Shown in pieces: positions 7,015-51,752 of a stretch of DNA of 64,000 bases. Numbering within the stretch: position 1 is the stretch's first letter; the number at the start of each line of letters is the position of its first letter. Position numbers and translations under genes: made by a program. A model generated the notes under the pieces. That model did not search any database and was not told the origin of the DNA. It worked only from the letters and a program-made list of their open reading frames with translations. Source of the stretch: Aquamicrobium defluvii (GTDB lineage: Bacteria; Pseudomonadota; Alphaproteobacteria; Rhizobiales; Rhizobiaceae); NCBI RefSeq assembly GCF_004363725.1, contig NZ_SNZF01000010.1, forward strand, positions 62,001 to 126,000, given 5' to 3'.

Positions 7015-7986
7015 GTGAACGCAGACATGACCACCGCAAAGATGCTCCTCGCCGCGACGGCTTTCGCTGCCGCCCTGTCGCTTTCCGCGCCTGTCGCTCA
7101 TGCGCAGGAAGACGGCTGGCCCCGCACGGTCAGGCATGAGGCGGGGGAACTGACGCTCCCCGCCCGGCCTGTCCGGATCGTGTCGACTGCTCCAAGTCTC
7201 ACCGGCATCCTGCTCGCCATGGACGCTCCGCTGGTTGCGACCGCAGCTACCACGCCCAGCGTCATGACCGACGACAAGGGGTTCTTCTCGCAATGGGCCG
7301 GTGTCGCCGACGAACGCGGCGTCGAGGTGCTTTACAGGAACCTGAGCTTCGACATCGAGGCCGTGATCGGCTGGGAGCCGGACCTGCTGATCGCATCCTC
7401 CTCGGGCGCCGACACCGTGCTTCAGCACTATGGCGAGCTTGAGGCGCAGGGCATTCCGACCTTGGTCGTGAACTATTCCAACCAGAGCTGGCAGGACATG
7501 GCCATCAGGATCGGGGAAGCCGCCGGACTTGAGAAAGAGGCTCTCGCGGCCATAGAGCGCTTCGACGCCCATACTGCCGGGGTGGCCGCCTCGCTCAGGA
7601 AGGACAAGGGCACGGCAAGCATCGTCGGCTACAATATCGGCGCCAGCTACTCGATCGGCCGGCCCGAAAGTCCACAGGCGCGGCTGCTCTCCTCCCTGGG
7701 CTTCGAGGTTCAGGGGATGCCGCAGGCACAGTCTGGCGATGTGACGCGCCGCTCCGATTTCGACTTCATCTCGCGCGAAAACCTGTCGGCTGCCATTACC
7801 GGCGATACGGTTTTCCTGTTGCGCGGCACGGATGCCGATGTGGAAGCCTTTCTTGCCGATCCGGTCCTCGCCAATCTGCCGGCGGTCAGGAACAGGCGCG
7901 TCTATCCGCTGGGGCCAACCTCCTTCCGCATCGATTACTATTCGGGGCTGGAGATGGCCGATGCCGTGGCCCGGCATTTTCGCTGA
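7015..7986 (+). CDS. Iron-siderophore ABC transporter substrate-binding protein (FepB/FecB type)
   Basis: A periplasmic binding protein of about 323 residues. GTG 7015 is preferred because an AAGGA ribosome site lies seven bases upstream; ATG 7000 and ATG 7027 are alternatives. The N-terminus is a signal peptide ending ...APVAHA-QE near residue 30. The mature part carries the helical-backbone class III fold: the PVRIVSTAPSLTGILLAM segment, WEPDLLIASSSGADTVL, and LEKEALAAIERFD for the long connecting helix. It should capture the iron chelate delivered by the TonB receptor. Position directly before the two permease genes supports this. Confidence 0.93.
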   Translation: MNADMTTAKMLLAATAFAAALSLSAPVAHAQEDGWPRTVRHEAGELTLPARPVRIVSTAPSLTGILLAMDAPLVATAATTPSVMTDDKGFFSQWAGVADERGVEVLYRNLSFDIEAVIGWEPDLLIASSSGADTVLQHYGELEAQGIPTLVVNYSNQSWQDMAIRIGEAAGLEKEALAAIERFDAHTAGVAASLRKDKGTASIVGYNIGASYSIGRPESPQARLLSSLGFEVQGMPQAQSGDVTRRSDFDFISRENLSAAITGDTVFLLRGTDADVEAFLADPVLANLPAVRNRRVYPLGPTSFRIDYYSGLEMADAVARHFR

Positions 7987-37096: not shown

Positions 37097-38209
37097 CTAT
37101 CGCAGGTAATCGCGGAAGCGGCGCAGCGAGAGGACGAACAGCACCGAACCGATCGCAAACAGCGCAAGTATCTGCGGCCACACCACGTCTATGCCGGCCC
37201 CCCGGAACAGCACACCCTGCGCCAGTATGACGAAGTGCGTGTTGGGGGCGGCCAGCATGATGTCCTGCACGATCTGCGGCATGCTCTCGCGCGGCGTGAG
37301 GCCGCCCGACAGAACCTGCAACGGCAGCAGGATGAGCATCAGCAACAGGCCGAACTGGGGCATGGAGCCCGCCATGGTGGCAAGGAAAATGCCCATCGAG
37401 GTGGTGGCGAAGAGATGCACTGCGGCCCCGAACAGGAACAGCGCCACAGAGCCCTGAATGGGAACGTGCAGCAGCCCCTGCACCACGAAGACGATGGAGG
37501 CGGCCGAGGCGGCAAGCACCACGAGCCCCATCGACAGCACCTTGCTGATCATGATCTCGGCCGGCGTCACCGGCATGACCAGAAGATGTTCGATGGTGCC
37601 GTGCTCGCGTTCGCGGATCAGCGCCGCGCCCGTCAGCACGATGGAGAGCATGGTGATGGAAAACACCACGTTCGACAGCGCACCGAACCAGCCCTTGTTG
37701 AGCTGCGGGTTGAAGCGCATGCGCATGGCCAGATCAACGGGAAGTTCCGTCGCGCCGCGATGGCGGGCGAGGAATTCGTTGACCTCGCTGGACACGATCG
37801 ACTGCACATAGGTGCCGCCGGTGAATGCCTGGCTGACCCGGGTGGCGTCGATGTTCAGCTGGATCGCCGGCGAGTGCCCGGCCAGCAGGTCGCGCTGGAA
37901 ATTCGGCGGGATGTCGAGCGCGAAAGTGTCGAGCCCCGCATCCATGCGCGTGTCCATCTCGGACTGGTCGATCAGCTTCGGCACCACGAAATAGGGTGGA
38001 TAGAAGGCTGTCGTGATGCGCGACGACACCGGCGACTGATCCTCGTCGACGATGGCGATGGCGGCGCGGTTGAGGGTTTCCGGCATGGCCGTCACCGCCG
38101 TGTAGATCGCGACCGTGAAGGCATAGACGATCAGGGCCAGCAGCATCTTGTCGCGACCGAGACCGCGCAGCTCCTTCACACCCAGATTATAGATGTTGGC
38201 AACACGCAT
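37097..38209 (-). CDS. ABC-2 type membrane permease (YhhJ-like)
   Basis: A 370-residue permease with an N-terminal membrane anchor (ALIVYAFTVAIYTAVTAM), a large periplasmic domain, and five C-terminal membrane segments (VVFSITMLSIVLTGAALIRERE, then the MPVTPAEIMISKV coupling loop). This matches E. coli YhhJ, the last gene of the yhiI-rbbA-yhhJ cluster. It follows the RbbA-like gene by three bases. The complex probably exports a drug or lipid-like compound through the HlyD-type adaptor, though no substrate can be read. Confidence 0.9.
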   Translation of the reverse strand: MRVANIYNLGVKELRGLGRDKMLLALIVYAFTVAIYTAVTAMPETLNRAAIAIVDEDQSPVSSRITTAFYPPYFVVPKLIDQSEMDTRMDAGLDTFALDIPPNFQRDLLAGHSPAIQLNIDATRVSQAFTGGTYVQSIVSSEVNEFLARHRGATELPVDLAMRMRFNPQLNKGWFGALSNVVFSITMLSIVLTGAALIREREHGTIEHLLVMPVTPAEIMISKVLSMGLVVLAASAASIVFVVQGLLHVPIQGSVALFLFGAAVHLFATTSMGIFLATMAGSMPQFGLLLMLILLPLQVLSGGLTPRESMPQIVQDIMLAAPNTHFVILAQGVLFRGAGIDVVWPQILALFAIGSVLFVLSLRRFRDYLR

Positions 38210-38212
38210 GGT

Positions 38213-41002
38213 TCAGGACGCCTGTTTCTTCAAAAGCAGGATGCCGAGGCCGAACAGCACCGGCACGGCAATCAGCAGCGGGACGAACTGTGGGGCGAGA
38301 TCGCCGAATTCCAGCGCCTTCGAGAAGGCGCCGCGCGAAATGGTGACGAAATAGGTCGTCGGGTAGATGTTGCCGATGACCGCGCCAAAACCACGCAACG
38401 ACGAGACCGGATCGATCAGGCCCGAATACTGAACCGCGGGAATGAGCGTCAGCAGCGCCGTGGCGAAGATCGCCGCGATCTGGCTCTCGATGAAGGTGGA
38501 GATCACCAGCCCCATGCCGGTCGTGAAGATCACATAGAGTATCGCCGCCGCCGTGTAGGCCACGAAGCTTCCGGTGAACGGCACGCCGAATATGTAGACG
38601 GCGAAGAAGGACAGCATCACGAAGTTCAGCATGGCAAGCGCCACATAAGGCAACTGCTTGCCGAGCAGGAATTCCGTGCGGGTCACCGGCGTCACGTAGA
38701 AATTGACGATGGAACCCAGTTCCTTCTCGCGCACCACGCTCAGCACCGCCAGCATGGCCGGTATCATCAGCAGCAGGATGGGGATGATCGCGGGAACGAT
38801 CGCCACAAGGCTCTGGACATCGGGATTGTAGCGGTAACGCACCTCGAGCCGGAATTTTCCGACCGTGGCGGCATCGCCATAGATTTCGCGCGCCTTCTGC
38901 ATCAGCCACGTCTGATGCACACCCTGCACATAACCACGTACGGTTTCGGCGCGCATCGGCATGGCGCCATCCACCCATGCGCCGATCTGGACATTGGTGC
39001 CGCGCGATAGATCCCGCCCGAAGCCGGGCGGTATCTCGATGGCGAGGCTGAGCTTGCCGCTCGCCATGCGCCGGTCGAGATCGTCATAATCCCTGATCGG
39101 TTCTTTTTCGATGAAGTAGCGCGACCCGGCGAGCTGAAGCGCATAGTCGCGGCTGATGGTGGTGTCGTCGTGGTCGAGCACGGCGAAGGACAGGTCCTCG
39201 ACATCCATGCTGATGCCGAAGCTCACGACGAACATCAGAAGAACCGAGCCGATAATGGCGAGACTGGCGCGGATCGGATCACGGCGAAGCTCCAGCGCCT
39301 CGCGCTGCGTATAGGCGAACATGCGCCGGAAGCTGAAGAAGGCGCGGTCGGAGGTCTTTTCCGGCACGATCTCCGGTTCGGGCTCCATCGGCACATCGGC
39401 AGCGGGCTGCGGCTTGCCGGTGTCGCCGATCGCCTCTTCCAGATAGGCGACGAAAGCTTCCTCGAGCGTTTCCGCGCCCTTGCGCTCGATGATGCCGTTC
39501 GGCGTGTCCGACACCAGCACCTTGCCGGCATGCATGAGCGATATGCGGTCGCACAGAGCTGCCTCGTTCATGAAGTGGGTCGAGACGAAGATGGTGACCC
39601 CATCCTTGCGCGACAATTCGGCAAGGATTTCCCAGAATGCGTCGCGCGCCACCGGATCGACGCCCGATGTCGGTTCGTCGAGGATGAGGATTTCGGGCGA
39701 ATGGATCATTGCCACGGCCAGCGACAGGCGCTGGCGGATGCCGAGCGGCAGCGCTTCCGGCAGCGATTCCATCACGGCGGCGAGATCGAAGCGGCGCACC
39801 ATTTCCCCGATGCGGCCGGGGATGGTTTCCGGCGCCATGGCGAACAGGCGCGCATGGAGTTCGAGATTCTGGCGGACCGTGAGTTCCGAATAGAGCGAGA
39901 AGGCCTGGCTCATATAGCCGACGCGGCGGCGTATCTCCACGTCGCGCGTATCGACCTCGCGGCCGAACAGCATGGCCGTGCCTTCGCTCGCCGGCAAAAG
40001 GCCGGTCAGCACCTTCATGGTCGTGGTTTTGCCGCAGCCGTTGGAGCCGAGGAAGCCGAAGATTTCGCCGCGCGGAATCTCGAAGCTCACCTTGTCGACG
40101 GCGGTGAAGTTGCCGAAGCGCACGGTGACGTTTTGGGCGCCGATGGCGATGTCGCTTGCGGCATCGTCCGGGCGCGGCGGGATGACGACCTGCCTGTGGC
40201 CGCTGCGCTTCTCCTCGGGCAGCAGCGCCACGAAGGCGGCGTCGAGATTGTCGGTGCCGGTCTTTGCCAGCAATTCCGCCGGCGTGCCGGTGGCAAGGAC
40301 CTTGCCGTCGTCCATGGCGACAAGCCAGTCGAAGCGCTCGGCCTCTTCCATGTAGGCGGTGGCGACGATGACGCTCATGCCTTCACGCTCGCCGCGAATA
40401 TCGTCGATGAGTTCCCAAAATTGCCGGCGTGACAGCGGATCGACGCCGGTGGTCGGCTCATCGAGGATCAGCAGGTCGGGGTCGTGAATCAGCGAGCAGC
40501 AAAGGCTGGTCTTCTGCTTCATGCCGCCGGAAAGCTTGCCCGCAGGGCGCGGTGCGAAGGGCGACATGCCGGTGCGCGCCAGAAGCGTGTCGATGCGATG
40601 CTTGCGCTCTTCCTTCGAGTGACCGAACAGCCGCCCGAAGAAGTCGATGTTCTCGAAAACCGACAGTGTCGGATAGAGGTTGCGGCCGAGGCCCTGAGGC
40701 ATGTAGGCGATGCTGGAATAAGCCTCGCGCCGATGGCGGCGGTCTGCAATGTCGCCGCCCAGCACCTCGACGCGGCCTTCCTGTATCACGCGCGCGCCGG
40801 CGACGAGCGACAGGAGGCTCGACTTGCCCACGCCGTCCGGGCCGATCAGGCCGACCATGCAGCCAGCCGGAATGTCGAGATCGATCCCGTCCAGCGCGCG
40901 CACGGCGCCATAGCTCAGCCCGACATTCTTCAGCCGCGCGACCAACTCGCCGCCCGGCTTCGCGCCCGATGGCGTCGCGGCTCCGGCAGCTTCTGCGATC
41001 AC
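38213..41002 (-). CDS. rbbA: RbbA-like tandem ABC ATPase fused to ABC-2 permease
   Basis: About 929 residues with two ATPase domains followed by a membrane domain. The first has Walker [13 protein letters not shown] and signature [11 protein letters not shown]; the second has [12 protein letters not shown] and [10 protein letters not shown] in place of a canonical signature. The last 370 residues form an ABC-2 permease ending ...LLLKKQAS. E. coli RbbA has this layout. The GTG at 41002 is preferred because it overlaps the HlyD stop (GTGA); an ATG at 41035 in frame is the alternative. The three genes HlyD-RbbA-YhhJ are tightly packed, so they form one export system. Confidence 0.9.
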
Positions 41003-42066
41003 GGCGAGACAACCTCGCGCAGCTGTGCCGGCCATTCGGCCTCAGGGTCGAGCTTGACGTAGGCCACGCCCGGGAGGCCGGTCTTGACGTACTGGATGTA
41101 CTGCCGCAGCAGCTCTGGAGAGATCTGCGCCTTGACGCGGAACATCAGCTTCTGGCGCTCTTCCTCCGTCTCCACGGTCTTGGGCGTGAACTGCGCAACG
41201 TCGGCGACGAAGCTCACTTTCGCCGGAATGACATATTGAGGAACGGCGTCGAGCACGATCCGCACCTCCGTGCCCATGGCGACGCGGCCGGCCTGTGCCG
41301 TCGGCAGGAAGAAGGTCATGTAGACGTCGCCGACATCGACCAGATTGAGCACGCGCCCGCCGCTGGGCAGAATCTCGCCCGGCTGAGCGACACGGTACTG
41401 CACGCGCCCGGCGCGCGGAGCGGTAAGAACGGCGTCGTTGATGTCGGCGCTGATGCTTTCGATGGCCGCCCTGGCCGCATCGACCGCGGCTTCGGCGTCC
41501 ACCACCTGCGCCTGTGCGGCGCTGATGCCGGCTTCGGTTGCGGCAAGCTGCGCGCGCGCCGCGTTGACGGCGGCAGCGGCTTCGAGCGCGGCCGCGCGAT
41601 CGTTGTCGAGCAATTGCTGGGAGAGGTTGCCGGTACGGGCGAGCTGCTCGGAGCGAACGAGCTTCTTGTCGATGACGTCCTGCTGCGCTTCACGCTGAGC
41701 CACGACCGCCTGCGCAGCCGCGTTTTCTGACTCGCGCTGCTTCACCAGGGCATGGGCGGTCTCGATCCCGATGGTCGCGCGCTTGAGTTGCGCTTCGAGC
41801 TGGCGACGCTGCGCCTCCATCTGCTCGGTATCCATGCGCGCCAGAACTGCGCCAGCCTCCACGAAGACACCTTCATCGGCCATGATTTCCTTGATGCGCC
41901 CCGGCGTGCGGGCGGATATGTCGATCTCGACCGCCTCGATGCGCCCGTTTCCGGACGCGATGCCTGCTGGCAGGGCGGAGCTGTCGTAATATCTCCAGAA
42001 ATAGTACCCGCCGCCGACCACCGCGGCCGCCACGATGGCCAGAATCCAGTTCTTCGCAGACTTCAT
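40999..42066 (-). CDS. HlyD/EmrA-family membrane fusion protein (YhiI-like)
   Basis: A 355-residue periplasmic adaptor. One N-terminal membrane segment ([18 protein letters not shown]) anchors it. A biotinyl-lipoyl-like half ([21 protein letters not shown]) is followed by long coiled-coil helices ([17 protein letters not shown] through [15 protein letters not shown]) and the return strand [18 protein letters not shown]. It links the RbbA/YhhJ pump to the outer membrane. ATG 42066 is preferred over an upstream in-frame ATG because it starts the membrane anchor directly. Confidence 0.92.
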
Positions 42067-42270
42067 GATGCTGTAATCCCTGCAATTGTGGCCGCGACAA
42101 GCTTGCATTCAGGATGGTGCGTGCGCACCAGAACCCACGCCGACCGGAATCGGATGTCCCTCATATGACCCTCTCGCTGCCTGACCCACCGAAATCCGGT
42201 GGCCATGGTTCTCAAAAATTCCTGTCTCCGGCCCAGCCGGCAGTCCGTAGCCCCGGCCGCATGGCCCCCG

Positions 42271-42594
42271 TCAGCCTGTCTGCCTCGACGAGGCGATGAG
42301 CGCAACGTTCCTGTCGAAGGCACGCCTGCCTTCGTCGAGCCAGCCGGTCACCATTTCGCGGGTGAAATCCCTGCCGCAGGCGATCACATCGGATGGTTGT
42401 CCGGCCTCCGACAGTTTCCTGGCATAGTCGGCCTGCAACTGGAGCTGCCGTGCCGCAGCACTCAGTGCGTCGCGGCAGAGACCGGCGCAGAACCGCACCT
42501 GAACTGCCGAGGCCGTAGCCAGCCAATCGGTGCCGAACAGTGAAGGAAACGGGACATCCTGCGGCTGCGCGTCTCGATTTTTCCCTTCAGCCAT
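42271..42594 (-). CDS. Small phasin-like protein
   Basis: A 107-residue, mainly helical protein. It shows no enzyme motif, but the amphipathic stretch QLQLQADYARKLSEA followed by CGRDFTREMVTGWLDEGRRAFD resembles phasin-type granule proteins. It is divergent from a TetR-PHA synthase operon, which supports a link to polyhydroxyalkanoate granules. ATG 42594 has GAGGAG at good spacing; a GTG at 42603 is possible. The phasin call is an inference from composition and context. Confidence 0.55.
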   Translation of the reverse strand: MAEGKNRDAQPQDVPFPSLFGTDWLATASAVQVRFCAGLCRDALSAAARQLQLQADYARKLSEAGQPSDVIACGRDFTREMVTGWLDEGRRAFDRNVALIASSRQTG

Positions 42595-42659
42595 CGCGTT
42601 CACTCCTCGAAATCAGAGAGACTGTAGAGATACAATCCGCGCAATGGGTGCAATCGTCA

Positions 42660-42683
42660 TTGATCTATGTCAACAGTGTTGAC
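42660..42683. promoter_or_regulatory. FNR/FixK-type box overlapping a GTCAACA-TGTTGAC palindrome
   Basis: TTGAT-CTAT-GTCAA at 42660-42673 fits the anaerobox pattern TTGAY-N4-RTCAA recognised by FNR and FixK proteins. Overlapping it, GTCAACA-G-TGTTGAC (42669-42683) is a perfect inverted repeat that could be the operator of the adjacent TetR protein. Both lie in the 150-bp divergent region between the phasin-like gene and the TetR gene. Confidence 0.55.
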
Positions 42684-42744
42684 CTCTTATGGCGCTAGAA
42701 GCAAGCTGCATTGCGAAGGCTCCCTCGCGACAACGGATTGATCA

Positions 42745-43464
42745 ATGACCGGCCCGCAAGCCATTACAGCAGAAAGCCCCGCGCCCGGTTCCGGCGACAC
42801 GACCAGAGACCGTATCCTCAAGGCGGCGATGGCGCGGTTCTCCACGCAGTCCTACAGCACCACCTCGCTGCGCGATCTCGCGTCCGATGTCGGTGTCGAC
42901 GTGGCCTATGTGCACCGCTGCTTCGGCTCGAAGCGGAATTTGTTCCGGGCTTCCATCCGTGCGGCGATGCGCCCGGACTGGATGTTCGCCGGCGACGGTC
43001 ACGCGCTGGCACTCACGCTGGCGAGGCAGATGCTGGGCGAAGCGCCGCGCAGCGAGATACGCATGCTCGACATCGTCTTCCGGTCCTTTTCGAGCCCCGA
43101 TGCCTCGCAGGTGCTGCGTGAGGTGCTGATGGAAGATTTCATCAGCCCGCTCATCGCAGCGCATCCGCATGTCACCGAGCGGCAGGCCGCGCTTGTCGCG
43201 GCTTTTGCGGCAGGTGTCAGCATTCTGCACGACGTGATCGGCAGCGAGCCGCTGCTCGAAGGCGGTGACGGCGAGGCGGAACGCCTCGTCGTACAGGCGC
43301 TTGGCCAGTTGCTGGGCAATGGCCGCCTTGCCGAACCCTCTTCTCCTTTGTGGAAAGGTGAATCCAGTGAATGCTCAAACGTCTCCCAAGACCCGCACCC
43401 CGGCCAGAAGCCAGACGCAACTCCGGAAAACCGGCAAAAGTGCCGCTATGCCGCGGACGATTGA
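42745..43464 (+). CDS. TetR/AcrR-family transcriptional regulator
   Basis: A 239-residue regulator. The N-terminal TetR helix-turn-helix reads DRILKAAMARFSTQSYSTTSLRDLASDVGVDVAYVHRCFGSKRNLF, split across residues 18-65. The C-terminal ligand domain is not recognisable to substrate. An inverted repeat 60 bases upstream is a likely operator. Its last 98 bases overlap the preferred GTG start of the PHA synthase gene, and the final 45 residues (after LLGNGRLAEPSSP) look non-conserved, so the true end of function may come earlier. Confidence 0.88.
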   Translation: MTGPQAITAESPAPGSGDTTRDRILKAAMARFSTQSYSTTSLRDLASDVGVDVAYVHRCFGSKRNLFRASIRAAMRPDWMFAGDGHALALTLARQMLGEAPRSEIRMLDIVFRSFSSPDASQVLREVLMEDFISPLIAAHPHVTERQAALVAAFAAGVSILHDVIGSEPLLEGGDGEAERLVVQALGQLLGNGRLAEPSSPLWKGESSECSNVSQDPHPGQKPDATPENRQKCRYAADD

Positions 43465-45199
43465 CGAGAGCGTCTCGTCAGAAGCCTACCGCGCCATCGA
43501 CCAGATGCGCGAGGCGCTGAGCGCGCATCTCACCGGAGGGCTGTCGCCGGCCTCGCTCGCACTCGCGCTCATCGACTGGTACATCCATCTTGCCGCAGCC
43601 CCAGGCAAGCGCCTTGAGCTGATCGACAAGGCCGTGCGCAAGTCTGCCCGGCTTTCCACCTATCTGGCGGCGGCCGGTGTCGACCCCGAAACGCCACCCT
43701 GCATAGAGCCGCTGCCCGGCGACTACCGTTTCAGGGCGCAAGCCTGGTCGCAGCAGCCCTTCTCTTCCTTTGCACAATCCTTCCTGCTGGCACAGCAATG
43801 GTGGCACAATGCAACTCATGAAGTGCCGGGTGTAACCCCGCATCACGAGGATGTCGTGTCGTTCATGGCGCGCCAGATGCTTGACGTCTTCTCCCCGTCC
43901 AACAACCCGTTCACCAATCCGGAAGTGCTTTCCAAAACCATCGAGGCCGGCGGCACGAACTTTGTCAAAGGCTTCCAGAACTGGATGGAAGATGCCGCAC
44001 GGGCTGCTTCGGGCCGTCCGCCGGTCGGCACGGAGAACTTCACGCCGGGCGAGGAGGTTGCCGTCACACCGGGCAAGGTGGTGTATCGCAACCATCTGAT
44101 CGAATTGATCCAGTATGAGCCGGCTACCGACAAGGTGCTTGCCGAGCCGGTGCTGATCGTGCCGGCGTGGATCATGAAATACTACATTCTCGACCTGTCG
44201 CCACACAACTCGCTGGTGCGCTATCTGGTGGAGAAGGGCCACACGGTGTTCTGCATCTCGTGGCGCAACCCGACCGCGGACGACCGCAACCTGACAATGG
44301 ACGACTATCGCAAGCTCGGCGTCATGGCCGCGCTCGATGCGATCAATGCCATCGTGCCGGACCGGAAGATCCATGCGACGGGCTATTGCCTGGGCGGCAC
44401 GCTGCTTTCGATAGCGGCCGCCGCAATGGCGCAGCACAGGGACGACAGGCTGGCCTCCCTCACCCTGTTCGCAGCGCAGACCGACTTTGCCGAGCCGGGC
44501 GAACTTGCGCTTTTCATCGATCACAGCCAGCTTCATTTCCTTGAAAGCATGATGTGGAACCGCGGCTACCTCTCGGCCGACCAGATGGCCGGCGCCTTCC
44601 AGCTTCTGCGCTCCAACGACCTCATCTGGTCGCGGATCGTGCGCGATTACATGCTGGGCGAACGCACGCCGATGAACGACCTCATGGCGTGGAACGCGGA
44701 TTCCACCCGCATGCCCTACAGGATGCATGCGGAGTACCTGAAGCGGCTGTATCTCGACAACGAGCTTGCCACCGCCCGTTTCATGGTGGATGGCCGCCCG
44801 GCCGCACTGCAGAACGTGAGGGTGCCGATGTTCGTCGTCGGCACCGAGCGCGACCATGTGGCGCCATGGCAATCGGTCTACAAGATCCATCACCTGACCG
44901 ATACGGACCTCGTCTTCGTGCTGACAAGCGGCGGTCATAATGCCGGCATCGTCAGCGAGCCGGGTCACAAGGGGCGTCGCTACCGGTTCGCGGAGAGGCG
45001 CCAGCACGATCCTTACCTCGACCCGCAGGAGTGGGTCGAGACGGCTTCCGCCCGCGATGGCTCGTGGTGGCTGGAATGGTCGGACTGGCTGCTCGGGCGC
45101 TCGACGCAGGAGCGCGTTGCTCCGCCCGCGACGGGTGCGGCCGACAAGCGCTATGCGCCGCTCGAAGACGCCCCCGGCACCTATGTGTTTCAGCGATAG
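43367..45199 (+). CDS. phaC: Poly(3-hydroxyalkanoate) synthase family protein (PhaC-like)
   Basis: About 610 residues. The lipase-like box GYCLGG carries the nucleophile Cys341 as in PHA synthases (Cys instead of Ser). The PhaC N-domain (SLALALIDWYIHLAAAPGKRLEL, PFSSFAQSFLLAQQWWHNAT) is followed by VPAWIMKYYILDLSPHNSLV, DDYRKLGVMAALDAI, and the catalytic His region SGGHNAGIVSEPG. GTG 43367 follows GGAAAGG; ATG 43448, just before the TetR stop, is an alternative. It is followed at once by a MaoC-Pta fusion and an acyl kinase gene, so it may polymerise or handle 3-hydroxyacyl-CoA in this operon. Confidence 0.9.
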   Translation: MNAQTSPKTRTPARSQTQLRKTGKSAAMPRTIDESVSSEAYRAIDQMREALSAHLTGGLSPASLALALIDWYIHLAAAPGKRLELIDKAVRKSARLSTYLAAAGVDPETPPCIEPLPGDYRFRAQAWSQQPFSSFAQSFLLAQQWWHNATHEVPGVTPHHEDVVSFMARQMLDVFSPSNNPFTNPEVLSKTIEAGGTNFVKGFQNWMEDAARAASGRPPVGTENFTPGEEVAVTPGKVVYRNHLIELIQYEPATDKVLAEPVLIVPAWIMKYYILDLSPHNSLVRYLVEKGHTVFCISWRNPTADDRNLTMDDYRKLGVMAALDAINAIVPDRKIHATGYCLGGTLLSIAAAAMAQHRDDRLASLTLFAAQTDFAEPGELALFIDHSQLHFLESMMWNRGYLSADQMAGAFQLLRSNDLIWSRIVRDYMLGERTPMNDLMAWNADSTRMPYRMHAEYLKRLYLDNELATARFMVDGRPAALQNVRVPMFVVGTERDHVAPWQSVYKIHHLTDTDLVFVLTSGGHNAGIVSEPGHKGRRYRFAERRQHDPYLDPQEWVETASARDGSWWLEWSDWLLGRSTQERVAPPATGAADKRYAPLEDAPGTYVFQR

Positions 45200-45206
45200 G
45201 ATCATC

Positions 45207-46613
45207 ATGCAGGACCAGCTTCTGACCAACCGCACCTTCGACCAGCTTCAGATCGGCGACAGCGCCTCCATAGTGCGTGTCGTTGGCCGCGACGACATCG
45301 AACTGTTCGCGACCGTCTCCGGCGATGTGAATCCGGTGCATCTCGACGCTGCCTTCGCCTCGACCGGTTTTTTCGGCCATATCGTCGCCCACGGCATGTG
45401 GACTGGCGCTCTGGTCTCCTCTGTCCTCGGCACCAGGCTGCCCGGTCCCGGCACGATCTATCTCGGGCAGGAATTGCATTTCCTCAAACCCGTTGTGCCC
45501 GGCGATACCATCACCGCCAGCGCAACCGTGAAGGAGAAACGGCCTGCCGAGCGCATCGTGCTGCTCGACACCATCTGTACCAACCAGAAGGGCGAGGAAG
45601 TGCTTTCCGGCATCGCAACTGTCGTGGCGCCGGACCGGACCATAAAATGGCCGGCCGCAAAGCTGCCCGACGTGTCGTTGCGGAGGCATGAACGATACGA
45701 GGCATTCGTGCGCGAGGCGAGAAACCTGCCTTCGATCCGTGCGGCGATCGTGCATCCCTGCTCGCCCGCTGCCGTTCTTGGTGCGGTGGAAGTGCGCGAC
45801 GAAGGTCTGTTCGAGCCATTGCTGATCGGTCCGGAGGCGAAGATACGTGCGGCGGCGGAAGCCGCCGGAGCCGATCTTTCCGGCATCGCCATCGAGTCGG
45901 TCGAGCACAGCCATGCAGCGGCAGCGCGCGCGGTCGAACTGGCCGTGGCCGGCAAGGTTTCCGTTCTGGTCAAGGGCAGCCTGCATTCGGACGAACTGCT
46001 GGGGGCCGTGGTGGCGAAGGATTCCGGCCTGCGGACCGAGCGGCGCATCAGCCATGCCTATGGCATGGATATCCCCGCCTATTCCAAGCCGCTGATCATT
46101 ACAGACGCCGCCATCAACATCCAGCCGAGCCTGGAGCAGAAACGCGATATCTGCCAGAACGCCATTGATCTCTTGCATATATTGGGCGTCGAGACACCGC
46201 GTGTCGCCGTTCTTGCCGCGGTGGAGACGGTGAACCCAAAAATGCAGGTGACGCTCGATGCCGCTGCCCTCACCGTGATGGCGGCACGCGGCCAGATCAC
46301 CGGGGCGAAGGTGGACGGCCCCCTTGCCTTCGACAATGCCATCAGCATGGATGCGGCAAGGACCAAGGGCATCGTGTCCGATGTCGCCGGTCAGGCCGAC
46401 ATCCTGCTTACCCCCGATCTGGAATCGGGCAACATGCTGGCCAAGCAGCTCATTCATTTTGCCGGCGCGACGGCGGCCGGGCTGGTGCTTGGCGCCCGCG
46501 TTCCGATCGTGCTGACCAGCCGGTCCGACCCGCTCAGCGCCCGTATCGCGTCGGCGGCTCTGGCCAAGCTTGTCGCGGCCAGAAAATCTCTCGCGGGGAA
46601 GCTGCCGGCATGA
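45207..46613 (+). CDS. Fused MaoC-like enoyl-CoA hydratase and phosphate acetyl/butyryltransferase
   Basis: A 468-residue bifunctional protein. Residues 1-150 are a MaoC hotdog domain with the hydratase motif ATVSGDVNPVHLDAAFA and HGMWTGAL. Residues 160-468 are a phosphotransacylase domain (PTA_PTB) with IVHPCSPAAVLGA, VLVKGSLHSDELLGAVV and ITDAAINIQPSLEQKRDI. Together they could hydrate enoyl-CoA and swap CoA for phosphate on an acyl group. An AGGATC ribosome site precedes the ATG. It overlaps the kinase gene (ATGA at 46610-46613), giving a route from acyl-CoA to acyl-phosphate to ATP. Confidence 0.92.
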   Translation: MQDQLLTNRTFDQLQIGDSASIVRVVGRDDIELFATVSGDVNPVHLDAAFASTGFFGHIVAHGMWTGALVSSVLGTRLPGPGTIYLGQELHFLKPVVPGDTITASATVKEKRPAERIVLLDTICTNQKGEEVLSGIATVVAPDRTIKWPAAKLPDVSLRRHERYEAFVREARNLPSIRAAIVHPCSPAAVLGAVEVRDEGLFEPLLIGPEAKIRAAAEAAGADLSGIAIESVEHSHAAAARAVELAVAGKVSVLVKGSLHSDELLGAVVAKDSGLRTERRISHAYGMDIPAYSKPLIITDAAINIQPSLEQKRDICQNAIDLLHILGVETPRVAVLAAVETVNPKMQVTLDAAALTVMAARGQITGAKVDGPLAFDNAISMDAARTKGIVSDVAGQADILLTPDLESGNMLAKQLIHFAGATAAGLVLGARVPIVLTSRSDPLSARIASAALAKLVAARKSLAGKLPA

Positions 46614-47797
46614 GCCAGAAAATGCTTGTAACCTTCAATGCCGGCTCATCGACGGTGAAGATCGGCCTGTTCGCGCTCGATCAGGGAACGGCCCGGCGTA
46701 TCGGCAAGGGCATGATCGATTTCCGCAAGGCCCCGCTTCGCTTCGAGCTGTCCGAAGGGCCCGACCGCTTCGACGTGGAGCTCAAGGCCCGGCCCGGCGG
46801 TGAACTGGACGAGGTTCTGGGCGAAGCCTTCGAACGGCTGTCATGGCATTACGACCTCGACGATGTCGCCGCCATCGGCCATCGCGTCGTGCATGGCGGC
46901 GATCTGTTCACCGGTCCTGTCGCGGTCGACGGGGAAAGCCTGGCGCGCATGGAGGAACTGGTGGCGCTCGCGCCCCTCCACCAGCCGCAGGCGCTGAAGC
47001 TAATCTACGCCATTGCCCGGTTGCGGCCCGGCATAAGGCAGACCGCTTCCTTCGACACCGCCTTCCATCGCACCAATGCCGAAATCGTACGGCGCTTCGC
47101 CCTGCCGCGCGAGTTGCACGATCAGGGCATCAGGCGCTACGGTTTCCATGGCCTGTCCTACAAGTTCATTGCCACAGAGCTGGCGCGGCGCGATGCGAAG
47201 GCGGCATCGGGCAAGGTGGTCGCCGCGCATCTCGGTTCGGGGGCCAGCCTGTGCGGGCTGGACAACGGCATCAGCCGCGACACCAGCATGGGCTTTTCCA
47301 CGCTCGATGGCGTGCCGATGGCAACCCGCTGCGGCGCGCTCGACGCGGGCGTGCTTCTGCATCTCATGGGTGCCGGCGGAAGCACGCTGGATGACGTCGA
47401 GGACTTACTTTACAACCGTTCCGGCCTGCTTGGTCTGTCCGGTATCAGCGCCGACAGCCGCGTTCTGCTGGAGAGCGACAGGCCGCAGGCGCGCGAAGCG
47501 ATCGAAGTCTTCACGTTCCGCATCGCCGGCGAGATCGCCCGGCTGGCCACCACGCTCGGCGGGCTCGATGCCATCGTCTTTACCGCCGGCGTGGGCGAGC
47601 ATCAGCCCGCCGTGCGCGCCGATATCTGCAAACGGCTGGAATGGCTCGGCGTCGATATCGACCGGATTGCGAACGCGGCCAATGCAACTTCCATCGGCAG
47701 CGAGAGAAGCCGTGTTTCCGTCTTCGTCATCCCGACCGATGAGGAACAGGTGATCGCCGACGAGGCCCTGTCCATCGCCAATGGCGCCCGCCCCTGA
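46610..47797 (+). CDS. ackA: Acetate/propionate kinase family protein
   Basis: A 395-residue acyl kinase that makes ATP from acetyl- or propionyl-phosphate, or the reverse. It has the N-terminal phosphate loop FNAGSSTVKIGLF, GHRVVHGGD, QTASFDTAFHRTNAEIVRRF, the YGFHGLSYKFIA stretch and VVAAHLGSGASLCG. DTSMGFSTLDGVPMATRCGALDAG and FTAGVGEHQPAVRADI complete the family set. It overlaps the MaoC-Pta gene and so forms one coupled unit with it. Whether acetate, propionate or butyrate is preferred cannot be told. Confidence 0.95.
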   Translation: MSQKMLVTFNAGSSTVKIGLFALDQGTARRIGKGMIDFRKAPLRFELSEGPDRFDVELKARPGGELDEVLGEAFERLSWHYDLDDVAAIGHRVVHGGDLFTGPVAVDGESLARMEELVALAPLHQPQALKLIYAIARLRPGIRQTASFDTAFHRTNAEIVRRFALPRELHDQGIRRYGFHGLSYKFIATELARRDAKAASGKVVAAHLGSGASLCGLDNGISRDTSMGFSTLDGVPMATRCGALDAGVLLHLMGAGGSTLDDVEDLLYNRSGLLGLSGISADSRVLLESDRPQAREAIEVFTFRIAGEIARLATTLGGLDAIVFTAGVGEHQPAVRADICKRLEWLGVDIDRIANAANATSIGSERSRVSVFVIPTDEEQVIADEALSIANGARP

Positions 47798-47820
47798 CGC
47801 TGGGGGGCGGCCGGCAATTT

Positions 47821-47845
47821 CGCGGCTGTCGGTTTGTCAGCCGCG
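47821..47845 (+). terminator. Stem-loop after the kinase gene
   Basis: A perfect 8-bp stem (CGCGGCTG/CAGCCGCG, 47821-47828 with 47838-47845) with a 9-base loop lies 23 bases after the kinase stop. No T-run follows; it also overlaps the stop codon of the leftward gene fragment. Confidence 0.45.
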
Positions 47846-47920
47846 CGGGGGCTGCATCTGCACAAAGCGCTTGCGGAACCAGTCGCGCAGCATCTCCTTC
47901 TCATAGGCGAACCGTTCGGA
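47837..47920 (-). pseudogene. C-terminal fragment of an unknown gene cut by the IS6-family element
   Basis: Reading left from the element's left end, a frame gives SERFAYEKEMLRDWFRKRF and then VQMQPPRG before TGA at 47837-47839. It reads like a real protein tail (charged, amphipathic, no rare-codon look) but starts abruptly at the inverted repeat, with no start codon in host DNA. The rest of the gene is missing; sequence right of the element does not continue it. I cannot name the family. Confidence 0.5.
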
Positions 47921-48746
47921 CTCTGTCGCAAACTGCACGGTAACGTTGCTTCTAGCATGACGGTTCTTCCATTTCAGGGAGCACTTCATGGTTTCAGGCC
48001 GTCATTTTGACCGTTCGGTGATCCTGTTGTGCGTACGCCGGTATCTGGCTTACAATCCCAGCCTTCGGGATCTGGAAGAGATGATGGCCGAGCGAGGCAT
48101 TGCCATCGACCATTCCACAATCCATCGCCGGGTTGTTCACCTCTCACCGCTATTGCTCGAAGGTTTCAACCGACGCAAGCGACCCGTCACCCGCAAATGG
48201 CATATCGATGAAACCTATGTAAAGGTTCGTGGCCGCTGGACCCATCTCTGTCGCGCCATCGACAGCCTGGGTGACACGGTCGAGTTCTTCTTCAGCGAAA
48301 GCCGTGATCTGCTGGCCGCCAAACGCTTTATCCGAAAAGCACTGAACCGTCATGGCCGACCAGATCGTGTTGTCATTGATGGCAGTCGGACGACCCGGGA
48401 AGCAATTATTGCCTGCGATGGCGAAAGCCGCCTGCGAAATCGATCACGGGAACGGCTGAAGCCGATCAGCATTCGGCAAAGCCAATATCTGAACAATCAC
48501 ATCGAACAGGATCATCGACGTATCAAGCGCCGGATCCGGCCCATGCTCGGCTTCAAATCGATGGCTTGCGCCGCGACGGTCCTGTCCGGCATCGAGATGG
48601 TTCACATGATGCGCAAACAACAGGCGAGATAGGCCTGCAACCCACGCCTGTCACTCGCCGAGCGGTTTGAAGTCCTCGCTGCGTAAAAACGAGCAGAAGC
48701 CGTTCCGCGTCTCAACTTCGAGTTTGCGACAGAACCCGAACGGTTC
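47909..48746 (+). mobile_element. IS6-family insertion sequence with 26-bp imperfect terminal inverted repeats
   Basis: One transposase gene is flanked by inverted repeats at 47909-47934 and 48721-48746 that match at 24 of 26 positions. The inner part, GGACTCTGTCGCAAA on the left, resembles the GG-CTCTGTTGCAAA ends of IS6/IS26 elements. The outermost bases (GAACCGTTC / GAACGGTTC) are also inverted, so the repeat is longer than usual and no 8-bp direct target duplication is seen. The exact ends are uncertain by about nine bases. Confidence 0.8.
47988..48632 (+). CDS. IS6-family transposase
   Basis: A 214-residue DDE transposase. An N-terminal helix-turn-helix (RDLEEMMAERGIAIDHSTIHR) is followed by the catalytic domain with Asp74 (WHIDETYVKVRGRW), Asp131 (VVIDGSRTTREAI) and a Glu in NNHIEQDHRRIKRRIRPMLGF. 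These are the hallmark stretches of IS6/IS26. The protein is a little shorter than most members (about 234) but has all catalytic parts, so it may be active. It lies inside the matching inverted repeats. Confidence 0.9.
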   Translation: MVSGRHFDRSVILLCVRRYLAYNPSLRDLEEMMAERGIAIDHSTIHRRVVHLSPLLLEGFNRRKRPVTRKWHIDETYVKVRGRWTHLCRAIDSLGDTVEFFFSESRDLLAAKRFIRKALNRHGRPDRVVIDGSRTTREAIIACDGESRLRNRSRERLKPISIRQSQYLNNHIEQDHRRIKRRIRPMLGFKSMACAATVLSGIEMVHMMRKQQAR

Positions 48747-50258: not shown

Positions 50259-51174
50259 ATGCCCTATCTCCTGTCTCCAGACCTTCCCCGGACATCTGCC
50301 GGCGGGCGCTTCCGGGCGCTGGTCGAGCGCGGTGGCATCGCAAGGCTTCCCGGAGCCCATAACGGCATGGCCGCCCTGCAGGCCAGAGCTGCCTGCTTCG
50401 AGGGGCTCTACCTGTCGGGCGCGGCCATGACCGCCTCGATGGGCATTCCCGATCTCGGCATCATCACCGTGGACGAGGTGGCCTTCTTAATCCGCCAGAT
50501 CGCCCGTGCGTCCGGCCTGCCGCTGCTGGTCGACGGCGATACGGGCTATGGCGAGGCGCTCAACGTCATGCATATGGTGCGCACTTTCGAACAGGCGGGG
50601 GCAGGGGCCGTGCATGTGGAAGACCAGCTCCTGCCCAAGAAGTTCGGCCACCTCAACGACAAGAAGCTGGCCGCTCCAAACGATATGGCGGCCAAGGTGG
50701 CTGCTGCGGCAAAAGCCCGACGCCATCTCTACATCATTGCCAGAACGGACGCGGCGGCGGGCGAGGGCATCGACGGTGCCGTCGCGCGGGCAAAGCTCTA
50801 CATGGAGGCCGGTGCGGATGCGATCTTCCCCGAGGCGTTGAACACGGCCGAGATGTTTCGCGAATTCGCGGCGCGCATGCCGGGTGTTCCCCTGCTCGCC
50901 AACATGACCGAATTTGGCCTAACGCCCTTCTTCACCGCCGACGAGTTCGAGGTGATAGGCTACAAGATGGTGATCTGGCCGGAATCGTCCTGCGCGTCGC
51001 CAACAAGGCGCAGGAGAAGCTGTATGCGACGCTGAAGCGTGACGGCGCTCGACCGAGGCGATGGTGCCTGAAATGCAGACGCGCGCCGAACTCTACGACA
51101 CGATCGATCTGGCGGCATATGAGGCGCTGGACGCCTCGATCGTCGCCACCGTGGTGCCGGAGCAGGCCACCTGA
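50259..51174 (+). pseudogene. prpB: prpB (2-methylisocitrate lyase) pseudogene
   Basis: The first 240 codons read well as PrpB: RFRALVERGGIARLPGAHNG, LYLSGAAMTASMGIPDLGI, LPLLVDGDTGYGEALNV and VHVEDQLLPKKFGHLNDKKL. Two 1-nt deletions (near 50988 and 51046) then break the frame; restoring both gives SLRVANKAQEKLYATLKRDG, EAMVPEMQTRAELYDTIDLA and a normal stop at 51172-51174, for 305 residues in all. In addition the catalytic loop KKCGH has become KKFGH (residue 129, codon TTC at 50643-50645), so the enzyme would be inactive even without the frameshifts. Confidence 0.85.
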
Positions 51175-51236: not shown

Positions 51237-51752
51237 CGCCCGGACGTAAGGGCCGTCCCGTGACAAGATGCGTCCCAACCGCCGTGAAATGCAGGAAAGC
51301 TGCGGGAAGACGGTTGTGCAGCACGTTCTCATGGCAAGGCGCGTCTGCACTATAACAACGCCCCACACCATTCCTGCACGGCGTCAGCCGATGGCTGTTT
51401 GCAGTCAGCACCGGCTGCCTGATTCTCTCCCGCCTGTTCGACGATCGGCAGCGGAAGCAACGATTACCGCTGCATCCCCGACAGAACTATCCTGTGCAAA
51501 GCCCCATCCGGGCTCGGCCATCTGCGAATGGCGCGACATCGGCAATGGCGCTTGTCCGCTGACAAAACCCACCATTACATGTTGAATATCAAGAGGTTGA
51601 TTCGGAGGCCGCGAATCGGCTTCCCGCCTTGCAACGTTCCTGGGCCTTTCGTTGACTGACGTAAAATTCCTTGCCGCAAGGTCCGAATCGGGCATAATCA
51701 CGGTTGTTTGGAAAAACATCTCCAAAAATCGTTATTAGGAAATGCAGCCCGA
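51237..51752. other. Gene-free region upstream of repA
   Basis: No convincing gene is seen in this 516-bp stretch. It should hold the repABC promoters. Two small inverted repeats are visible: GATTCG-7 bp-CGAATC at 51599-51617 and CCTTG-CCG-CAAGG at 51669-51681; either could be a RepA operator. I did not find the parS pattern GTT-N2-C-N4-G-N2-AAC here. Confidence 0.45.

Follow-up and report, generated by a model that had tools for sequence, protein, structure and literature searches.

A candidate dual-input promoter, built of an FNR/FixK-type box and an overlapping TetR-linked palindrome, before a polyhydroxyalkanoate and acyl-phosphate operon of Aquamicrobium defluvii

In a 64,000-nucleotide stretch of the 4.5 Mb Aquamicrobium defluvii genome (hereafter the window; contig 10, positions 62001-126000), an operon of the order tetR-phaC-(maoC-pta)-ackA, combining a polyhydroxyalkanoate (PHA) synthase gene with acyl-phosphate genes, is preceded by a composite site. 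An FNR/FixK-type box, TTGATCTATGTCAA, lies on the forward strand at 42660-42673 and a palindrome, GTCAACAGTGTTGAC (GTCAACA-G-TGTTGAC), at 42669-42683; the letters GTCAA belong to both, and the overlapping pair noted in a preliminary description of the locus is confirmed. A predicted -10 element, TAGAAG, follows on the same strand at 42696-42701, and we infer a transcription start of the operon at about 42708, with the box centred at a predicted -41.5. Judging from sequence comparison, we consider it fairly probable that the region 42660-42701 is a dual-input promoter, activated in low oxygen by FnrL or FixK and autorepressed by the TetR protein through the overlapping palindrome.

All operon genes are read from the forward strand, and the preliminary identification of the four of them holds. 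The first (42745-43464) encodes a TetR-family regulator, in which a TetR_N domain (36.6 bits) and an all-helical ligand domain were recognised by profile, by a structure model with a predicted local distance difference test score (pLDDT) of 82 and by a fold search of the PDB; structure search and sequence search of solved structures led to general TetR regulators only. The inferred start of phaC (43448-45199), one of two PHA synthase genes of this organism, lies inside the end of tetR. Its product matches PhaC_N with 190 bits and falls below the class I PHA synthase cut-off (TIGR01838, 534 bits vs 623); a Cys, an Asp and a His, which we take to be those of the active site, are visible in the translation, and the second PhaC, encoded on another contig, reaches a higher score. 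A few bases after phaC, again by an inferred start, begins maoC-pta (45207-46613), the gene of a MaoC/PhaJ-type (R)-enoyl-CoA hydratase fused to a phosphate acyltransferase (PRK08190, 728 bits vs a cut-off of 282), the Pta domain of which is nearest to phosphate butyryltransferase. The last gene, ackA (46610-47797), shares an ATGA overlap with maoC-pta and codes for a kinase of the acetate/propionate family (PRK07058, 661 vs a cut-off of 486). Scanning 42000-48100 for sigma-70 promoters and terminators gave no excess over shuffled sequences (one promoter-like match vs a mean of 1.0, one terminator-like match vs 3.5).

Judged on the window alone, the FNR-type box is not remarkable. The pattern TTGAY-N4-RTCAA has one match there, compared with a mean of 0.15 in shuffles, and 15 of 100 shuffles also have at least one; when one mismatch to TTGAT-N4-GTCAA is allowed, the same single match is returned, the shuffle mean being 1.78. 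Such figures would suit a chance box beside a TetR-controlled PHA operon, yet conservation among relatives, set against spacing controls, and the fixed distance to the -10 element render this explanation scarcely credible. Our comparison set comprised 80 loci found by the MaoC-Pta protein, or 75 after removal of five duplicates, and contained 44 sites of the pattern in 37 loci (34 of the 75), compared with 0, 1, 1 and 3 sites for the spacers N2, N3, N5 and N6, one site for the reversed pattern, and 0 and 3 sites for two permuted patterns. The -10 element was counted in 28 of the 37 box-bearing loci, leaving out the duplicates L062, L066 and L101 and six loci in which the box does not adjoin the operon (L075, L086, L088, L102, L107, L118). 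On the operon side, the dinucleotide TA stands at box+23 in 16 of the 28, as it does in the window, and at box+24 in another four (together 20/28), while any other offset up to 45 is taken in at most three loci; on the opposite side the best offset, +22, is reached in five. A class II FNR promoter has its box centred at -41.5 and a -10 element at the matching distance. The TA at +23 or +24 corresponds to the geometry of such a promoter reading towards phaC, with a box that is conserved and a -10 distance that is itself evident from conservation.

The palindrome first came to notice through a GTTGAC that TetR-bearing loci keep six bases past the box. A TetR of the window kind is encoded in or next to the operon in 17 of the 80 loci; the TetR matches of L072, L091 and L095, which have a different recognition helix, were not assigned to this subfamily, nor were matches more than 6.5 kb into the locus counted (L057, second match; L086, L094, L100, L101). 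Thirteen of these 17 loci contain the palindrome, 12 with N4 between the arms and one, L040, with N3, and the remaining four contain GTCATC-N4-GTTGAC; among the 63 loci with no such TetR nearby, the palindrome was found in five. RTCAAC-N4-GTTGAY occurs in 17 of the 80 loci and the other spacers from N0 to N12 in none to two (N6 in two), and 161 permuted half-sites gave a mean of 0.06 loci and a maximum of four. In the A. defluvii genome, GTCAAC-N3/4-GTTGAC is present at a single place, on the box, and its reversed form nowhere. The genomes of three of the five loci with the palindrome and no nearby TetR encode a near full-length homologue elsewhere (31-40% identity), and the strict palindrome adjoins one of these three distant genes (L171).

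A second set was collected by similarity to the TetR protein alone, at E 1e-12 in 397 genomes of the order, and gave 29 loci from 27 genomes. RTCAAC-N4-GTTGAY is found in 17 of the 29, in every one of which it adjoins the TetR frame at its 5' end. The window adds an N3 version, and five further loci have looser variants. No spacer from N0 to N12 other than N4 was seen in more than one locus, and the mean for 161 permuted half-sites was 0.02 loci (maximum one). In L190, L192, L193, L194, L198 and L209, among others, the palindrome lies between tetR and an HlyD gene. Because of this linkage to the TetR gene across loci, we conclude that GTCAAC-N4-GTTGAC is the predicted operator of this TetR subfamily, conserved beside its own gene. 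Since L187 looks close to L064 and L188 to L041, the two sets are not fully independent. Four loci (L183, L189, L203, L206) have two or three RTCAAC-N4-GTTGAY copies around or upstream of one TetR gene. A class-wide scan for the palindrome alone, with matches in 121 of 385 genomes, was too unspecific and was replaced by the composite pattern and the TetR-selected loci.

TTGAC being an FNR half-site, and the palindrome often sharing letters with the box, one might take it for a second CRP/FNR dimer site, or for a sequence preference of FNR promoters, and not for a TetR site at all. This we regard as very unlikely: 13 of the 17 palindrome-bearing TetR-selected loci show no strict FNR box within the roughly 3.5 kb retrieved for each (14 of the 17 lack a phaC or maoC-pta match there), two MaoC-Pta loci (L117, L056) combine TetR and palindrome with no strict box, L056 having a one-mismatch box, and the arms are reversed relative to an FNR site, with RTCAA first and TTGAY second.

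The preliminary description had called for a check on the conservation of the overlap and had named absence of the box from orthologous promoters as evidence against its reading. The box, as given above, is present in 37 of the 80 MaoC-Pta loci, and the overlap is kept in a subset of the relatives: in 16 of the 80 (14 of the 75 non-duplicate ones) RTCAA is common to box and palindrome in an identical register, the organisms concerned being rhizobial, Roseomonas-type and Rhodobacter-type. The composite pattern occurs in 14 of the 397 genomes of the order and its reversed control in none; in seven of the 14, the window included, cassette genes (tetR, hlyD, phaC or maoC-pta) lie within about 1.5 kb. 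If the box spans -48 to -35, the palindrome comes to lie at about -39 to -25, on the -35 region.

Regulators that could serve the box are encoded in the same genome, namely an FnrL-like protein carrying C-X2-C-X7-C and, on another contig, FixL-like, FixJ and FixK-like proteins, of which four FixJ is the only one to pass its curated cut-off. Further TTGAY-N4-RTCAA boxes are found at hemN/fnrL, ccoN and ccoG (names by NCBIfam). We also observed that the FixK-like, FixJ and FixL-like genes and a P-type ATPase gene adjoin arcA, arcB and arcC matches and a transporter-like open reading frame (L030, C38:20000-33066), forming a second low-oxygen island of this genome; that two TTGAT-N4-ATCAA boxes stand before an FtrB-like regulator at 7476 and 7612 of L029 (C20:68000-84000), with UbiU, of oxygen-independent ubiquinone synthesis, downstream; and that a perfectly palindromic box, TTGATCCGCATCAA, is present at two places, C2:171340 and C25:33403.

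In the proposed dual-input promoter, an FnrL-like or FixK-like protein of the CRP/FNR family would bind TTGATCTATGTCAA at -41.5 and activate transcription in low oxygen, whilst TetR, the first product of the operon, would bind the palindrome over the -35 region, including the GTCAA shared with the box. From its position, a protein occupying this site should keep activator and RNA polymerase alike from binding, and TetR would thus repress its own operon until released by a ligand, the resulting gate being 'low oxygen AND ligand'. We infer the binding, the direction of regulation, the competition and the ligand. The earlier suggestion that FNR/FixK and TetR compete for one site is supported by comparison as to the two kinds of site, given the conserved box, the -10 spacing, the FnrL-like and FixK-like genes, the published FixK2 control of a Bradyrhizobium phaC2 and the linkage of palindrome and TetR, and the competition itself is deduced from geometry.

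A number of observations weigh against this promoter model. As to the activator, a strict box is found nowhere in the locus for 43 of the 80 MaoC-Pta loci, and the FnrL-like and FixK-like proteins score 239 and 193 vs a curated cut-off of 300. As to the repressor, the genomes of two loci with the palindrome (L048, L073) yielded only short matches to the DNA-binding domain of TetR; one of five searched genomes whose locus has neither palindrome nor TetR, that of L047, does contain a near full-length homologue, with ATCAACATATGTTGAC beside it (L174); the strict palindrome is absent beside two of the three distant TetR genes (L170, L173); and six of the 29 TetR-selected loci have neither a strict nor a loose palindrome. 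In the other seven of the 14 genomes with the composite pattern, no cassette gene was found within about 1.5 kb, related loci among the 80 are not independent of one another, so that a Fisher value computed on them does not give a true probability, and no clear ribosome-binding site was seen before tetR in the window sequence.

The spacer of the window palindrome has to be added to these points, for it counts N3 between GTCAAC and GTTGAC, vs N4 in the strict TetR-linked sites of other lineages, and the window itself thus departs from the operator spacing of the subfamily. With its spacer one base shorter than in those lineages, repression of the window operon by TetR could be weaker, altered or lost. 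It is conceivable, if rather unlikely, that the box is real and the palindrome a decayed TetR operator, poorly bound by TetR, so that the operon answers to oxygen alone; among TetR-linked sites, N3 is confined to the window and its 99% relative L040, and the recognition helix VAYVHRCFGSK of the window TetR is the same as in N4 relatives and thus not altered to match. Against decay speak the two intact GTCAAC arms and the 24 bases of box and palindrome, all shared with L040 in spite of differences close by, a comparison of two strains only.

A different logic had been proposed for the locus, in which FNR/FixK and TetR decide whether the cell stores 3-hydroxyacyl-CoA or makes ATP from acyl phosphate. 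phaC and pta-ackA do draw on related acyl-CoA pools, as is generally known, but we rate a transcriptional switch of this kind as most improbable and find the proposal unsupported, because phaC, maoC-pta and ackA belong to one operon, on one strand, overlapping or nearly abutting, and should rise and fall together. The arrangement is common among relatives, phaC lying just upstream of maoC-pta in 62 of the 80 loci and ackA just downstream as well in 51 of them, where one promoter raises both.

The company kept by the operon is varied. fabI is strongly matched in 28 of the 80 loci (at 259 bits or above, leaving out two weak matches of 42 and 51 bits), in 27 of which it lies just downstream on the same strand, and in L094 the composite promoter is followed first by fabI; phosphoketolase has matches in 12 loci, and universal stress proteins have them in ten. 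Annotated plasmids of Shinella, Bosea, Paracoccus and Paraburkholderia carry the operon together with arginine deiminase, phosphoketolase, universal stress, cytochrome bd or fabI genes in varying mixture, and these neighbours point to a role of the operon in energy supply under low oxygen. In the window, a RepA-type partition gene, as on repABC plasmids, is found at 51708 (NCBIfam). A MaoC-Pta match at E 1e-60 or better occurs in six of 41 relatives' genomes searched, and at 99% or more only in the own genome and one congener. The operon is thus of scattered occurrence within the genus, as would suit a mobile replicon; L040, the locus of the 99% relative, comes from a Mesorhizobium metagenome bin. 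No fabI follows ackA in the window, where an IS240/IS6-type transposase gene (47988-48632) occupies the place that fabI has in many relatives. Further along, at 50259-51035, lies a methylisocitrate lyase-like open reading frame, perhaps truncated, which covers positions 2-234 of the 285 of the prpB model (343.5 vs a cut-off of 354.4).

Divergent from the operon, on the reverse strand, lies a small gene (42271-42594, with an inferred ATG at 42594) described earlier as phasin-like; the match exists and is weak, its Phasin_2 score of 20.8 bits lying under the gathering score of 24.9, and similar frames occur in 12 of the 80 loci, L040 included. It is followed on that strand by the genes of an exporter: an HlyD-family adaptor (40999-42066, start inferred, recognised by profile matches and synteny), an RbbA-type ABC transporter with fused ATPase and permease (38213-41035; NF033858, 1556 bits vs a cut-off of 1050) and an ABC-2 permease (37097-38209, profile matches). 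Phasin and RbbA exporter probably belong to the same regulon as the operon. A TetR-type regulator beside an HlyD/ABC-2 exporter is also known from Escherichia coli, where CecR (YbiH) goes with ybhGFSR. As a model for the window TetR, CecR was rejected, since only the DNA-binding domain matches (17 bits; PRK11552, 22 bits vs a cut-off of 365); a palindrome of the window type was not found in the 9 kb cecR region of E. coli.

Parts of this arrangement have precedents, which are compared here as far as the portions of the cited texts at hand describe them. In Bradyrhizobium diazoefficiens, FixK2 activates phaC2 (bll6073), as validated by in vitro transcription, and a FixK2 box is listed at -81 (PMC9104804); phaC2 is listed among the FixK2 targets (PMC10888616) and among the genes changed in microoxia (PMC6515984). 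As is proposed for the window, an activator of the CRP/FNR type there serves an additional PHA synthase gene when oxygen is low, but those portions describe neither a TetR gene nor an overlapping operator, and the locus numbers of the pta/ackA genes (blr3457, blr3458, bll2517) are far from bll6073, unlike in the window operon. Given that phaC2 is treated as probably not an active synthase (PMC10888616), polymer synthesis by the window PhaC should be assumed with caution only. Control of phbC by FnrN/FixK in some Rhizobiales has been predicted by comparative genomics (PMC4999443), with the same type of regulator and target as here and with no TetR, acetate kinase or ackA in the main text of that study. 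Clusters of the order phaC-(phaJ-pta)-ackA-fabI were reported from Burkholderia sensu lato, with a proposed role in the use of acetate for PHA (PMC8231600, where a pta-ack operon of S. meliloti induced by phosphate starvation is cited too); they have the same fused hydratase-Pta gene beside phaC and ackA, and in the portions compared no operon with tetR as first gene is described. The low-oxygen-activated (lxa) locus of Burkholderia cenocepacia contains phbB and genes for a phosphate acetyl/butyryl transferase, a zinc alcohol dehydrogenase, an MBL protein and universal stress proteins (PMC6127331). It has in common with the window operon a PHA gene and a phosphate acyltransferase, and relatives of the window operon sit among similar kinds of genes, universal stress and other stress genes being near some of them. 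As described in that report, lxa comprises about 50 genes, whereas the window holds only the PHA/acyl-phosphate part and an exporter; at E 1e-10, nothing in the window matched the stress queries used, two for universal stress proteins and one each for Hsp20, CBS and BON. A literature search of limited depth found no TetR operator of this sequence, nor one overlapping an FNR box, and either may exist in print. Control of phaC by FNR/FixK is already known, as is this type of operon; the dual-input promoter looks new.

As to what the operon does, one doubtful proposal is that it forms a hypoxic fermentation valve for acyl-CoA, leading from (R)-3-hydroxyacyl-CoA via acyl-CoA and acyl phosphate to ATP and a short-chain acid. 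If this were true, (R)-3-hydroxyacyl-CoA derived from PHA or acetoacetyl units would be dehydrated by the MaoC domain, an enoyl reductase would make acyl-CoA, and the Pta domain and the kinase would yield ATP and the acid, which the RbbA exporter would remove. With a transposase gene in the place of fabI, such a valve would depend on a reductase encoded at another site of the genome. TetR would sense an intermediate or the acid, the promoter would compute 'low oxygen AND carbon overflow', and the TetR subfamily of GTCAAC-N4-GTTGAC would define an overflow-product regulon, joined to FNR control via five shared bases.

The dual-input promoter would represent a recurrent design, in which oxygen sensing and a repressor input are read by the same five bases, before genes of storage and substrate-level phosphorylation. 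An operator can be predicted for a TetR subfamily, and a directly testable question follows, namely for what reason hypoxia would raise PHA synthase and acyl-phosphate genes jointly.

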